Shown here piece by piece: positions 22,302 through 45,541 of a stretch of 46,930 nucleotides of DNA. Made by a program: the position numbers and the translations under genes. The notes beneath the pieces were generated by a model that was not told where the DNA came from, did no database searches, and saw nothing but the letters and a program-made list of their open reading frames with translations. The stretch comes from Clostridia bacterium (GTDB lineage Bacteria; Bacillota; Clostridia; UMGS1883), in the NCBI GenBank assembly GCA_017505525.1, contig JAFVPB010000013.1:1-46930 (forward strand), written 5' to 3'. Numbering within the stretch: the first letter of the stretch is position 1; every line of letters begins with the position of its first letter.

Positions 22302-22317
22302 ACTTTCAAACTTAATA

Positions 22318-22402
22318 AACGGGAGCTTGTATTACAGGCTGAGAGGAAGGTGCGACCTTCGACCGAGAACCTGATTTGGATAATGCCAACGTAGGGATGC
22401 CT
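22318..22402 (+). promoter_or_regulatory. TPP riboswitch (THI element)
   Basis: The aptamer shows the conserved CTGAGAGGA segment (about 22338-22348), which binds the pyrimidine of thiamin pyrophosphate, and the segment ACCTGATTTGGATAATGCCA followed by CGTAGGGA (about 22369-22396), which binds the diphosphate. GGGAGC at the left end pairs with the right-hand end. Genes downstream are thiM, thiE and thiD, which fits exactly. A terminator 35 bases downstream supplies the off state. Confidence 0.96.
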
Positions 22403-22436
22403 GATACATAGTGTTAGGAGGAACAAAGAATTTTTA

Positions 22437-40671: not shown

Positions 40672-40944
40672 ATGAAAGAAGAACTTAAAAAACATATATC
40701 GCAGCTTGAGGAAATACTTATTGAGTTTAGAATCAGCGAAGAAAAAGCGCAATCACTGCTTGCCGATTTTCTGGGAGAACTTAAAAATGAAAAAACAGAC
40801 AGTGAAAGTGCTTATGGAGTTTGCATCTATAATGTGCTCGCAACAATCAATTCGGTTCCGTGCCTTACAAAGAAAAGCGCTCAGCTTATGAATGCTTTGA
40901 TGGAGGCAAAGGAAGAAATGAGTATAATTAGCGAAATATTGTAG
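40672..40944 (+). CDS. Small helical protein of unknown function
   Basis: The 90-residue product is predicted helical (KEELKKHISQLEEILIEFRI; LMNALMEAKEEMSIISEIL). It follows the helicase-loader gene by 12 bases with GTGAGG upstream of ATG, so it is probably cotranscribed. I recognise no family. A promoter for the next operon starts 40 bases after its stop. Confidence 0.62.
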   Translation: MKEELKKHISQLEEILIEFRISEEKAQSLLADFLGELKNEKTDSESAYGVCIYNVLATINSVPCLTKKSAQLMNALMEAKEEMSIISEIL

Positions 40945-40983: not shown

Positions 40984-41012
40984 TTGACAAAAAAGCGCTA
41001 TAGTATTATAAT
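40984..41012 (+). promoter_or_regulatory. Consensus promoter of the branched-chain amino-acid operon
   Basis: TTGACA (40984-40989) and TATAAT (41007-41012) are exact consensus with 17-base spacing. The start should fall near 41019, giving a leader of about 215 bases before ilvE. Confidence 0.9.
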
Positions 41013-41034
41013 TAGATAAATAGAGGTGTACGTT

Positions 41035-41145
41035 ATGATTATGGCAACTTTTAATGCAGTTATAATACTTGGCATTAGCGCTATTATTATTCTAAATGTG
41101 GTTTCAGAATCAGGTAGCGTTTGTTGTCGTGCAGAGGTATATTAA
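41035..41145 (+). CDS. Branched-chain amino-acid leader peptide (attenuator ORF)
   Basis: The 36-codon ORF starts at ATG 41035 after AGAGGTG, about 16 bases into the predicted transcript. Its product contains seven Ile, five Val and two Leu, with the dense run AVIILGISAIIILNVV (codons 8-23). The ORF is followed by a terminator hairpin and then ilvE. Its own sequence CAGGTA (41111-41116) can pair with the first arm of that terminator. This is the arrangement of classical translation-coupled attenuation: ribosome stalling on Ile/Val/Leu codons when charged tRNA is scarce allows the alternative pairing. A small membrane protein is the alternative reading, but the position strongly favours a leader. 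Confidence 0.75.
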   Translation: MIMATFNAVIILGISAIIILNVVSESGSVCCRAEVY

Positions 41146-41170
41146 TTAGCAACATGATTATTGTTACCTG
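41111..41170 (+). promoter_or_regulatory. Possible antiterminator pairing
   Basis: CAGGTA (41111-41116), just after the Ile/Val-rich codons, is complementary to TACCTG (41165-41170), which is the left arm of the attenuator terminator. The two pairings exclude each other. A ribosome held on codons 17-23 would leave the first segment free. Confidence 0.6.
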
Positions 41171-41195
41171 CGGCAATGCGCCTCAGGTAATTTTT
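41164..41195 (+). terminator. Attenuator terminator before ilvE
   Basis: TTACCTG (41164-41170) and CAGGTAA (41184-41190) pair, with inner GGC/GCC, and five T follow. It lies between the leader peptide stop and ilvE, 40 bases before the ilvE start, so transcription must escape it to reach the operon. Confidence 0.87.
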
Positions 41196-41234
41196 ATTTA
41201 GCTTATAAACAATAATTGAAAGGAAGTAATATAA

Positions 41235-42302
41235 ATGTTAAACATCAAAATCGAAAGAACTCAGGCTCCTAAGGAAAAGCCTGCAAAAGGCACAAAGCTT
41301 GGCTTTGGTAAAATCTTTACAGACCATATGTTTGTAATGGACTACACAGAGGGTAAGGGCTGGCACGATGCAAGAATCATCCCTTTCCAGGACCTTGTAA
41401 TGTCGCCTGCGGCAATGGTATTCCACTATGGTCAGGAAATGTTTGAAGGCCTTAAGGCATACAAGGGCGTTGACGGAAAGGTAAGACTTTTCCGCCCCGA
41501 TATGAATGCAAAAAGAACTAACGATACTAACGACCGTCTTTGCATTCCCAATCTTCCTGTAGAAGATTTTGTTGAGGCTGTTAAGGCAGTTGTTAAGGTT
41601 GATGAAGACTGGATTCCCACAGAAGACGGCACATCTCTCTACATCCGTCCGTTCATTATTGCAACAGACGAATTTTTAGGTGTTGCTCCTTCAAAAACAT
41701 ATAAGTTTATAATTATTCTTGCTCCAAGCGGTGCTTACTACGAAAGCGGTCTTGCTCCTGTAGGTATCTGGATTGAGGATGAATATGTAAGAGCAGTTAA
41801 AGGCGGTATGGGCTTTGCTAAAACAGGCGGTAACTATGCTGCAAGTCTTATTGCTCAGGTTAAGGCACACGACGATGGCTACTCACAGGTATTGTGGCTC
41901 GATGGCGTTGAAAGAAAATATATTGAAGAAGTTGGCGCTATGAACATCTTCTTTAAGATTGACGGAAAGATTGTTACTCCAATGCTCAACGGCAGCATTC
42001 TTCCGGGTGTTACACGTAACAGCGTAATTGCACTTTGCAAAAAGATGGGTTACGAAGTTGAAGAAAGAAGAATAAGCGCACAGGAGCTTATCGATGCACA
42101 GAAATCAGGCAAGCTTGAAGAATGCTTCGGCACAGGTACAGCGGCTGTTATTTCTCCTGTTGGAAAGCTTCGCTATATTGACGATGTTATGATTATCAAC
42201 AATAACGAAATCGGCGAAGTAAGCCAGAAGCTCTACGATACTCTTACAGGTATTCAGTGGGGTAAGCGTGAGGATGATATGGGATGGACAGTAGAAGTAT
42301 AA
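41235..42302 (+). CDS. ilvE: Branched-chain amino-acid aminotransferase
   Basis: This class-IV PLP aminotransferase interconverts Val, Leu, Ile and their 2-oxoacids. The 355-residue length and sequence fit the long BCAT group: GWHDARIIPFQ, VFHYGQEMFEGLKAY, FRPDMNAKRTNDTNDRLCIP, PLP-binding Lys196 (FAKTGGNYAAS), YIEEVGAMNIFF and GSILPGVTRNSVI, with FGTGTAAVISPVG near the end. The gene follows the attenuator and begins the operon with the oxoacid:ferredoxin oxidoreductase. Its ribosome site is AAAGGAAG. The next gene overlaps its end by 19 bases. Confidence 0.96.
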   Translation: MLNIKIERTQAPKEKPAKGTKLGFGKIFTDHMFVMDYTEGKGWHDARIIPFQDLVMSPAAMVFHYGQEMFEGLKAYKGVDGKVRLFRPDMNAKRTNDTNDRLCIPNLPVEDFVEAVKAVVKVDEDWIPTEDGTSLYIRPFIIATDEFLGVAPSKTYKFIIILAPSGAYYESGLAPVGIWIEDEYVRAVKGGMGFAKTGGNYAASLIAQVKAHDDGYSQVLWLDGVERKYIEEVGAMNIFFKIDGKIVTPMLNGSILPGVTRNSVIALCKKMGYEVEERRISAQELIDAQKSGKLEECFGTGTAAVISPVGKLRYIDDVMIINNNEIGEVSQKLYDTLTGIQWGKREDDMGWTVEV

Positions 42303-42976
42303 AACGCATCACGATTTTCAGCGGTCATTACGGCAGCGGAAAAACAAACGTTGCCGTAAACTACGCCCTATGGCTTAAAACAATGAAAGAGAATGTTTCT
42401 ATTGCTGACCTCGACATTGTAAACCCGTATTTCAGAACAAAGGATTCTATGGCGGTTCTTAGCGAAAACGGAGTTAATTTAATTTCATCTGAATATGCAA
42501 ACAGTAACGTGGATGTTCCTGCGCTTCCTGCAGAAACCTACGGTGTGCTTCAGAATAAGGAAATATATGCCGTAATCGACGTGGGCGGCGACGACAGAGG
42601 GGCACTCGCACTCGGGCGCTACAGTGAGGGAATAATTGAAGACGGAGATTACGAGCTTTTGTTTGTAATCAATAAATTCCGCCCCCTTACAAGAAACGCG
42701 GATATGACGCTTGAAATTATGGCAGAGATTGAAAAGGCGTGCCATATGAAATTTACCCAGATAGTAAACGATTCAAACCTTGGCGACGACACTAAAGCAG
42801 AAGATGTTTTATCATCAGTTGCCTATGCAAAAGAGGTTTCCGAAAAATCGGGTATTCCCATAAAAATGACCACTGTAAAAAGTGAACTTTATGATGAATT
42901 AAAGGATAAAATTGATAATTTAATGCCCATCGAACTATATGTCAGACAAAGCTGGGCAGAAAGGAATGATATATAA
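42284..42976 (+). CDS. P-loop ATPase of the MinD/CooC-like group
   Basis: The 230-residue protein has a P-loop at about residues 13-22 (GHYGSGKTN), a switch region (DLDIVNPYFRTKD), IDVGGDDRGALALGRY and LLFVINKFRPLT. It resembles ParA/MinD/CooC-type NTPases that help insert metal or cluster cofactors, and similar genes often precede 2-oxoacid:ferredoxin oxidoreductase genes in Clostridia. A role in maturing the iron-sulfur enzyme is plausible but not shown. The start overlaps ilvE by 19 bases and its stop overlaps the start of the ferredoxin gene (TAATG). Confidence 0.78.
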   Translation: MDSRSIKRITIFSGHYGSGKTNVAVNYALWLKTMKENVSIADLDIVNPYFRTKDSMAVLSENGVNLISSEYANSNVDVPALPAETYGVLQNKEIYAVIDVGGDDRGALALGRYSEGIIEDGDYELLFVINKFRPLTRNADMTLEIMAEIEKACHMKFTQIVNDSNLGDDTKAEDVLSSVAYAKEVSEKSGIPIKMTTVKSELYDELKDKIDNLMPIELYVRQSWAERNDI

Positions 42977-43179
42977 TGGCAAAGGTTACCTTTAACAAGG
43001 ATTTGTGTAAGGGTTGCGGACTGTGTGTAACAGCTTGCCCCAAAAAGATTGTTCATCTTTCAGATGACCTTAACAAGCGCGGTTATCATCCCGCACAGGT
43101 TACAGAGCTGGATAAGTGCATCGGTTGTGCTTTCTGTGCAACAATGTGCCCCGACTGCGTAATCACAGTAGAGAAATAA
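42976..43179 (+). CDS. 2[4Fe-4S] ferredoxin subunit of the oxoacid oxidoreductase (delta)
   Basis: The 67-residue protein has two cluster motifs, CKGCGLCVTACPKK and CIGCAFCATMCPDC, each C-x2-C-x2-C-x3-C, so it binds two 4Fe-4S clusters. It is the electron-transfer subunit of the four-subunit 2-oxoacid:ferredoxin oxidoreductases (KorD/VorD type). It lies between the P-loop gene and the alpha subunit. The stop of the upstream gene overlaps its ATG. Confidence 0.93.
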   Translation: MAKVTFNKDLCKGCGLCVTACPKKIVHLSDDLNKRGYHPAQVTELDKCIGCAFCATMCPDCVITVEK

Positions 43180-43197
43180 GGAAAGGAATGAAAATAA

Positions 43198-44262
43198 ATG
43201 GCTGATAAAGTTTTGATGAAAGGTAACGAAGCTTTAGCAGAAGCTGCTATAATGGCAGGCTGTAAGCACTACTTCGGTTATCCTATTACTCCGCAAACAG
43301 AGGTTGCGGCATATATGGCAAAGAAAATGCCTAAAACAGAGGGCGGCGTTTTCCTTCAGGCTGAAAGTGAAATAGCAGCTATCAATATGGTTATTGGTGT
43401 TGCTTCAACAGGTAAAAGAGTTATGACTTCTTCTTCAAGCCCGGGAATAAGCCTTAAGAGTGAGGGTATCAGCTACCTTGCAGGTTGCGACCTTCCAGCT
43501 CTTATAATTAACGTGCAGCGCGGAGGCCCCGGTCTTGGTGGCATTCAGCCCTCACAGTCAGACTATTTCCAGGCTACAAAGGGCGGCGGACACGGCGATT
43601 TCCATCTTCTTGTTCTTGCTCCAAACAGCGTTCAGGAAATGGTTGATATGGTGTTTAAGGGATTCGACCTTGCTGAAAAATACAGAATGCCCGCAATGAT
43701 TCTTTCTGATGGTACTATGGGCCAGATGATGGAACCTGTAAGCCTTGAAAAGGGCATTATCAACGAATACGATAAGTCTTGGGCACTCACAGGTACTAAG
43801 GGCGAAAGAAAGCCTAATATTGTTAACTCTCTCTACATAGCTCCCGAAGAACTTGAAAAGCTTAATTTCGAGCGTTACGAGCGATATAAGAAGATTGAAG
43901 AAACAGAAGCAATGTATGAAGAATACCTTATGGACGATGCTGAAATCTGTATCGTAGCATACGGTGTAGCTTCAAGAGTAGCAAAGAATGCTATCGACAC
44001 TGCAAGAAAAGAAGGCATCAAGGTTGGCATGATTCGTCCCATCACTCTCTGGCCGTTCCCGAAAAAAGCTCTTAATGAGGCTGCTGATAAAGTTAAGAAA
44101 TTCATCAGCGTTGAGCTTTCAATGGGTCAGATGATTGAGGATATCGAGCTTGCAATCCGTTGCAAAAAGGAAGTTCTTCTTTGCAACCGTACAGGCGGTA
44201 TGATTACAACAACTCAGGATGTTTTAAATAAGATTTATGAAGCGAACGGAGGTAAACAATAA
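43198..44262 (+). CDS. vorB: 2-oxoacid:ferredoxin oxidoreductase alpha subunit, VorB-type
   Basis: The 354-residue alpha subunit shows GNEALAEAAIMAGCKHYFGY, PITPQTEVAAYMAK, FLQAESEIAAINMVIGVAST, TSSSSPGISLKSEGISYLAG and VNVQRGGPGLGG-like (INVQRGGPGLGGIQPS), then ILSDGTMGQMMEPV. This is the family annotated as VorB or KorA: it oxidises branched 2-oxoacids or 2-oxoglutarate with CoA and ferredoxin, reversibly. Which substrate cannot be read directly; ilvE and the attenuator point to 2-oxoisovalerate and relatives. Its stop overlaps the beta ATG. GGAAAGGAATG precedes the start. Confidence 0.92.
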   Translation: MADKVLMKGNEALAEAAIMAGCKHYFGYPITPQTEVAAYMAKKMPKTEGGVFLQAESEIAAINMVIGVASTGKRVMTSSSSPGISLKSEGISYLAGCDLPALIINVQRGGPGLGGIQPSQSDYFQATKGGGHGDFHLLVLAPNSVQEMVDMVFKGFDLAEKYRMPAMILSDGTMGQMMEPVSLEKGIINEYDKSWALTGTKGERKPNIVNSLYIAPEELEKLNFERYERYKKIEETEAMYEEYLMDDAEICIVAYGVASRVAKNAIDTARKEGIKVGMIRPITLWPFPKKALNEAADKVKKFISVELSMGQMIEDIELAIRCKKEVLLCNRTGGMITTTQDVLNKIYEANGGKQ

Positions 44263-45008
44263 TGGTAGTATTTGATAAACCCAATGCACTCACAGAAAAC
44301 ACACTGCATTATTGCCCCGGTTGCACACACGGTATTATTCACCGCTTAGTTGCAGAAAGCCTCGATGAACTTGGAGTAACAGGCAGAACAATCGGTGTTG
44401 CATCGGTAGGCTGCAGCGTATTTACCTATAACTATTTTAATTGCGATATGGTTCAGGCGGCTCACGGCCGTGCTCCCGCTGTTGCAACAGGCGTTAAGAG
44501 AAGCGATAAAAACAATATCGTATTCACTTATCAGGGCGACGGCGACTTAGCTGCTATCGGTACAGCTGAAACAGTTCACAGCGCTGCTCGTGGCGAAAAC
44601 ATCACAGTAATTTTCGTAAACAATGCAATTTATGGTATGACAGGCGGACAGATGGCTCCCACAACACTTCCCGGGCAGAAAACACAAACATCTCCCTACG
44701 GACGTGATGTTGAAGCAGTTGGCTATCCTGTAAAGGTTTGCGAAATGCTTTCTCAGGTTGATGGTGCAACATACCTTGAAAGAGTTGCAGTTAATAACGT
44801 AGCTAATGTTAAAAAGGCTAAAGCCGCTATTAAAAAGGCTTTCCAGAACCAGATTGAAGGCAAAGGCTTCTCACTTGTAGAAGTGCTTTCAACCTGCCCC
44901 ACAAACTGGGGATTAGCACCCGACAAGGCTATCGGCTGGCTTGAAGAAAATATGCTTCCCTACTATCCTTTGGGAGTATATAAAGATAAGTACGCGGAGG
45001 AGAAATAA
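44262..45008 (+). CDS. 2-oxoacid:ferredoxin oxidoreductase beta subunit (TPP-binding)
   Basis: The 248-residue subunit binds thiamin pyrophosphate. Signatures are YCPGCTHGIIHRL (cluster or TPP contact Cys), VASVGCSVFTYN, AHGRAPAVATGVK, TYQGDGDLAAIG with the GDGD motif, and the NN segment in VIFVNNAIYGMTGGQMAPT. It is the catalytic partner of the alpha subunit and equals KorB/VorA. TPP need links the operon biochemically to the thiamin operon at 22318, though not by shared control. ATG overlaps the alpha stop, and GGAGGTAAAC precedes it. Confidence 0.93.
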   Translation: MVVFDKPNALTENTLHYCPGCTHGIIHRLVAESLDELGVTGRTIGVASVGCSVFTYNYFNCDMVQAAHGRAPAVATGVKRSDKNNIVFTYQGDGDLAAIGTAETVHSAARGENITVIFVNNAIYGMTGGQMAPTTLPGQKTQTSPYGRDVEAVGYPVKVCEMLSQVDGATYLERVAVNNVANVKKAKAAIKKAFQNQIEGKGFSLVEVLSTCPTNWGLAPDKAIGWLEENMLPYYPLGVYKDKYAEEK

Positions 45009-45010
45009 TC

Positions 45011-45541
45011 ATGAATAAAGAAATATTGATTGCCGGTTTCGGCGGACAGGGAATTCTCTTCTCGGGAAAATTTCTTGCATATGAAGGTCTTATTGATGGT
45101 AAAGAGGTAAGCTGGCTTCCCTCTTACGGTCCTGAAATGCGCGGAGGTACAGCAAACTGCAGTATCATCATCAGCGACAGTGCGGTTGGTTCTCCCATAG
45201 TATCTAACCCCGATATTCTGATTGCGATGAATCTTCCATCGCTTGATAAATACGAAAAAGAAACAAAGGCAGGCGGACAGATTTTTGTGGATAGCTCTCT
45301 TATCGACAGAAAGGTAGAGCGCACAGATGTGGAAACCTACTACATCCCCGCTACAAAAATGGCTTCCGACGAAGGACTTACAGGACTTGCAAATATGATT
45401 ATCATTGGTCATATGATTGCAAAGAGCGGTATTGTTCCCGAGGAAAATATTGAAAAAGCAATGCACAAGGTTGTTCCTGCTACAAAGCAGAATATGTTCG
45501 ATCTTAATATGAAGGCAGTAAAATTAGGCTTTGAATATTGA
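45011..45541 (+). CDS. 2-oxoacid:ferredoxin oxidoreductase gamma subunit
   Basis: The 176-residue gamma subunit starts EILIAGFGGQGILFSGKFLA, a typical family opening, with WLPSYGPEMRGGTANC and SIIISDSAVGSPIV, then PATKMASDEGLTGLANMIII. It completes the four-subunit enzyme. The ribosome site is GCGGAGGAG at the end of the beta gene, two bases downstream. A 38-base palindrome with T-run follows and ends the operon. Confidence 0.93.
   Translation: MNKEILIAGFGGQGILFSGKFLAYEGLIDGKEVSWLPSYGPEMRGGTANCSIIISDSAVGSPIVSNPDILIAMNLPSLDKYEKETKAGGQIFVDSSLIDRKVERTDVETYYIPATKMASDEGLTGLANMIIIGHMIAKSGIVPEENIEKAMHKVVPATKQNMFDLNMKAVKLGFEY

Follow-up and report, generated by a model that had tools for sequence, protein, structure and literature searches.

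In the 46,930-nt stretch of clostridial DNA analysed here (the window), ilvE, which encodes a class II branched-chain aminotransferase (41235-42302; TIGR01123, E 1e-122) and is the putative regulated gene, is preceded on the same forward strand by a promoter, TTGACA-17-TATAAT (40984-41012), that matches the consensus at 12/12 positions, by a leader ORF of 36 codons plus TAA (41035-41145) and by an intrinsic terminator (41163-41199). Read from the ATG at 41035 to the TAA at 41145, the ORF translates as MIMATFNAVIILGISAIIILNVVSESGSVCCRAEVY, and its frame is kept in relatives. Ile, Val and Leu account for 14 of the 36 codons (seven, five and two, respectively), with I14, I17-I19, L20 and V22-V23 as the putative control codons. 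The terminator consists of a hairpin (41163-41191) followed by the T-rich tail TTTTTATTT, its region (41147-41200) folding at -15.8 kcal/mol (z -3.1). The tail is ~35 bases from ilvE, so that the gene needs read-through of the terminator, unless it is transcribed from upstream. An internal mismatch interrupts the 3:4 stem of the window, which at -15.3 is weaker than those of its congeners (-20.6 to -23.8); this mismatch is probably the reason that a motif-pattern scan did not list the terminator, which folding does show and which is also present in the other members examined. An earlier note on this DNA had described a consensus promoter, a 36-codon ORF with 14 branched-chain residues, a terminator and then ilvE, and each of these was found in its place. 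Elsewhere in the window, a TPP riboswitch (RF00059, 61.2 bits; 22309-22414) precedes apparent thiamine genes.

Comparison within the genus covered seven genomes, that of the window and six congeners, and the leader was found in 6/6 of the latter. It is more than a chance arrangement: a covariance model made from the leaders of the six congeners alone picks out that of the window at E=1.5e-7, the next best match in the 46.9-kb window having E=1.3. Three blocks are conserved in the congener alignment, namely the Ile codons (CGCTATTATTATTCT), a core near the end of the ORF (AATAGCGCTnTTTGTCGTG) and the terminator (CCTGCGGCAA...GCCGCAGG). The first half of the core pairs back onto the Ile codons (helix 1:2) and the second half pairs with GCGGCAA (helix 2b:3). 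In the window, segment 1 (AGCGCTATT; 41077-41085), inside the Ile codons, forms 9/9 pairs with segment 2a (GGTAGCGTT; 41113-41121), and segment 2b (TGTTGTCGTG; 41122-41131), near the ORF end, forms 10/10 pairs with segment 3 (TGCGGCAATG; 41169-41178), which is common to the antiterminator and the 5' arm of the terminator. The conserved antiterminator predicted from this alignment is the pairing of UUGUCGUG (41124-41131, at the ORF end) with UGCGGCAA in the terminator 5' arm. The stop codon lies 2-11 nt past the core in the leaders of this genus, and a 90-aa ORF at 40672-40944 of the window, with no family match, is kept just 5' of the leader in congeners.

The genes that follow the leader differ within the genus. 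In G001, G002, G004, G005 and G006 it stands at an equivalent place, after a dnaC-like ATPase gene and a small ORF, with three genes downstream: a leuA-like one (HMGL-like plus LeuA_dimer), one for an 820-aa TIM-barrel/acyl-CoA-ligase fusion, and ilvE. In G003 the operon is split between two contigs, one with the leader and the beginning of the leuA-like gene and one with what remains. In the window's genome the leader directly precedes ilvE alone, and the designation of the earlier note, an attenuator before ilvE, holds for this genome and fails as a label for the family. The leuA-like and ligase genes of the window's genome are on contig C69 (LeuA-like protein 68% identical), behind a T-box (RF00230, 129.8 bits; L247:6703-6941, minus strand) with the specifier, read by eye, CUC (Leu), after GAA in the specifier loop. 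A second T-box on C69 (2479-2717, minus strand), with UUA as the specifier by eye, precedes an XRE plus AMP-ligase-like gene, and both T-boxes look Leu-specific. The leuA-like operon thus follows the leader in congeners and a T-box in the window's genome, which points to an exchange of attenuator and T-box within one genus, and the remark in the earlier note that many Firmicutes use T-boxes for such genes has proved apt. Around segment 1, the window leader reads LGISAIIILNV (2 Leu, 4 Ile, 1 Val) and the congeners mostly LLLIAIIILAI (3-5 Leu); fewer Leu codons in the window, in what is a single case, would fit a shift from leuA to ilvE. Downstream of ilvE and a ParA-like ATPase gene, ferredoxin-type, VorB-like, PorB/KorB-like and PorC/KorC-like subunits are encoded at 42976-45541. 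Taken with the acyl-CoA ligase encoded in the congeners' operon, these subunits suggest a route in which reductive carboxylation may turn branched fatty acids into branched-chain amino acids.

More distant members in the Clostridia were reached with covariance model R1 and the core pattern, and their gene names rest on profile matches. A congener-only model from which the window was left out also finds the distant leaders L055 (4.8e-6), L057 (6.8e-6), L056 (1e-5) and L103 (2e-5). Family leaders carry a Shine-Dalgarno sequence and I/L/V-rich codons, and a promoter-like TTGAC[AG] site with ~17-nt spacing is present at the equivalent place in 24/25 members, G337, whose leader stops early, not being scored. 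The leader precedes leuA-like genes in G388 and G337, and ilvE in an Anaerotignum MAG (L103) and, reached through the family of L103, in G413 and G445-G448. The terminator of L103 does not overlap segment 3, so that the switch of this leader would need another step. In the G337 leader (L057:1501-1638) an in-frame TAG stands one codon before an intact core, as it does in the near-identical L094. A leader with Met codons (MISNAFFIVNMMCAVMLLKKGMHKSADCRVK), the sole one of its kind, precedes an O-acetylhomoserine sulfhydrylase gene in G322 (TIGR01326, E 1.9e-173), and a shorter related leader precedes an L-lactate-dehydrogenase-type gene in G405, G408 and G409. In G152 (L058), a Tyr-rich leader (MKQFSANFAYNYYYYYHNER) precedes a gene that by its sequence is DAHP-synthase-like; the segment order is kept, the pairing sequences are its own, 2:3 folds at -14.0 kcal/mol and R3 gives E 8.7e-4, and membership of the family is probable. 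Leaders also precede lctP-type permeases (G415, G417, G419, G423, G425 and G427-G430). In the Anaerotignum family, branched-chain-rich leaders (L142-L145, L199, L204 and L206-L208) stand before such permeases, suggesting a role for these permeases, or for their operons, with branched-chain 2-hydroxy or 2-oxo acids.

The family is patchy, the leader being missing from most of the class genomes sampled, and in R2 searches 19-20 of ~390 genomes matched at E<=0.1, several of them by chance. A search of 391 class genomes for AATAGCGCTnTTTGTCGTG with <=2 mismatches gave mostly chance matches in genes, in numbers like those of the backward control. Eight of 18 exact AATAGCGCTnTTTGTCGTG-type core matches in genome contigs (Saccharibacteria, Gammaproteobacteria, Anaerolineaceae and others) were inside genes or leaderless, and the weak R1/R2 matches L051-L054, L212, L221-L226 and L233 had no terminator or matching ORF, or were within genes; all of these were rejected.

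Helix 2b:3 was evaluated in 25 leaders, which give 20 distinct rows and come from the window's genus as well as from more distant Clostridia. It was paired in 86.5% of cells compared with 78.9% after shuffling (0/500 shuffles). Segments 1 and 3 had been located by eye in every leader before the count, a bias towards pairing that the shuffle and slide controls do not wholly correct. In 19 cells both sides had changed (0/500 shuffles), a count that overstates independent events since close kin were counted separately, and slid registers were only 28-53% paired. Column 8-17 is G-C in 13, A-U in 7 and unpaired in none, a G8/A8 change that may represent one or few events, and the A8 strands form a duplex of -10.8 kcal/mol with their own kind of partner vs -4.7 kcal/mol with the G8 kind. 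Within the window, positions 1-2 of segment 2b have changed from GU to UG, and their partners are altered to match. The competing hairpin over the Ile codons, helix 1:2, was 88.8% paired in 20 leaders, with GC in 9, AU in 5 and GU in 5 at column 8-58. Both helices covary beyond shuffles and slid registers, 2b:3 more clearly than 1:2. The spacing from segment 1 to the core is 21, 24, 27, 30, 33 or 39 nt, a multiple of 3 in 20/20 leaders measured. Moreover, the third positions of the core TGT and CGT/CAT are T in 25/25 leaders while the encoded residues vary (R/H; V/I/F/D/N/L/M), which is expected under selection on the RNA; distant leaders were found partly via the core, the conservation of which among them is partly due to selection of the sample. 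Segment 3 lies outside the core pattern, although the terminator is part of model R1.

These data make it very probable that the window leader is a ribosome-mediated transcription attenuator sensing the charging of Ile (also Leu/Val) tRNA. Computation gave the anatomy, the covarying helices 1:2 and 2b:3 and the conserved frame, and from these we infer stalling, termination and the amino acids sensed. RNA polymerase would start near 41019 and a ribosome would translate the leader. With Ile (also Leu/Val) tRNAs charged, the ribosome would reach the stop at 41143 and cover segment 2b, leaving segment 3 to form the terminator, and ilvE would not be transcribed. With the tRNAs uncharged, the ribosome would stall on the Ile codons and cover segment 1, freeing segment 2 from the 1:2 hairpin, whereupon 2b could pair with segment 3, block the terminator and allow ilvE to be read. 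In the absence of translation 1:2 would form, and termination would be the default. The parts expected of an attenuator are present: a short ORF, predicted to be translated, rich in codons of the pathway and kept in frame in 20/20 leaders; an intrinsic terminator between ORF and first gene, in the window and relatives; and a covarying antiterminator that overlaps the terminator, the 5' strand of which would be freed from the competing helix 1:2 on stalling. Stalling-based attenuation, as put forward in the earlier note, is supported by relatives that keep the promoter, the ORF frame, the branched-chain codons, the terminator and, through compensatory changes, both competing helices. In constrained folds of the window leader, a ribosome at Ile17 gives the antiterminator and one at the stop gives the terminator; with one at Ile19 the terminator has the lowest energy, in a fold whose 5' RNA, however, pairs across the ribosome.

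The earlier note had assigned the antiterminator to CAGGTA (41111-41116) and TACCTG (41165-41170), which can indeed form six perfect pairs in the window, in a fold just 1.8 kcal/mol less stable than the conserved one (-14.9 vs -16.7). This pairing is, however, found in 0/6 congeners, in which at most 2/6 positions pair, and could coexist with the conserved helix only as a pseudoknot, making attenuation by this route very improbable. Attenuation through helix 2b:3 also has to be weighed against the view that the ORF is the gene of a small membrane protein with a function of its own, the terminator merely parting it from ilvE. Conservation of the peptide with loss of the pairing had been named in advance as the sign of such a protein, and across relatives the outcome is the opposite, pairing being kept while residues change. 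Its hydrophobicity speaks for a protein, as does the end of the peptide, NSAxCR, which distant Clostridia have in common, but the N-terminal half differs among groups, core residues change (R/H, V/I/F/D/N/L) while several synonymous positions stay, and these changes have their match in the non-coding arm of the terminator. In addition, the stop in G337 precedes the core, the DNA of which is nevertheless kept. A small-protein function is therefore very unlikely.

The same residues could be imagined to act as a ribosome-arresting peptide like TnaC, the nascent chain sensing a signal instead of tRNA charging, and they are common to leaders for different amino acids. We consider this highly doubtful, since the residues vary where pairing stays and the control codons track the downstream pathway (Ile/Leu for ilvE/leuA, Met for the sulfhydrylase). 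An RNA-binding protein or a ligand (riboswitch) as the reader of the leader is just as doubtful: the core is strongly conserved in sequence, but the conserved letters are the pairing letters, and the reading frame holds through both segments. The leader matched no Rfam family at the gathering score, and the T-box model RF00230 (T-box sequence, specifier stem) gave no match in the window. Ribosome-mediated attenuation by way of helix 2b:3 remains the preferred reading.

Attenuation by leader peptides is well documented in Proteobacteria and Actinobacteria and is known from a few Firmicutes. In the ilvGMEDA, ilvBN and leu attenuators of enterobacteria (E. coli, Salmonella), an Ile/Val/Leu-rich leader peptide is combined with competing segments and a terminator, and the position of the ribosome decides between them. 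The clostridial leaders share this organisation, but differ in having one homologous core for different genes and, apparently, different amino acids; to our knowledge, classical attenuators share no sequence with each other. Among Firmicutes, Rli60, the leader of ilvD in Listeria monocytogenes, is an experimentally demonstrated ribosome-mediated attenuator with overlapping terminator and antiterminator (PMC5864092); as described there, it resembles the window leader in this overlap and in its branched-chain codons, and differs in its 13-codon peptide and its place before ilvD. A Leu-rich attenuator peptide, again of branched-chain type, precedes ilvD in Staphylococcus aureus where B. subtilis has a T-box (PMC5794164), but the antiterminator proposed there sequesters the poly-U tail, whereas the clostridial one takes the 5' arm of the terminator. 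T-box leaders (RF00230), which likewise antiterminate on sensing uncharged tRNA, stand at the leuA-like operon in the window's genome. His leader peptides before hisS/hisZ in bacilli exchange with T-boxes across species (PMC2965389); they too are Firmicutes leader peptides that swap with T-boxes, differing in gene, amino acid and lineage.

A published account of the clostridial attenuator family was not found in a limited literature search, and on this and the Rfam search the mechanism is known and the family, which stands before several amino-acid genes of gut Clostridia, previously uncatalogued. On balance, we lean towards a single chassis, made up of the segment 2 core, the in-frame hairpin and the terminator and homologous across several Clostridia families. 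Swapped control codons (Ile/Leu/Val, Met, perhaps Tyr) would have re-specified this attenuator for different genes, a lactate-permease-type transporter among them, and within one genus it would be exchangeable with a T-box at the same operon. Their recognisable common core makes these clostridial attenuators searchable, so that their re-specification can be traced. Within a single genus, moreover, there is a natural comparison: six species have the same leuA-like genes under the attenuator and a seventh has them behind a T-box, so that the mutual replacement of attenuator and T-box, both sensors of tRNA charging, is directly testable.
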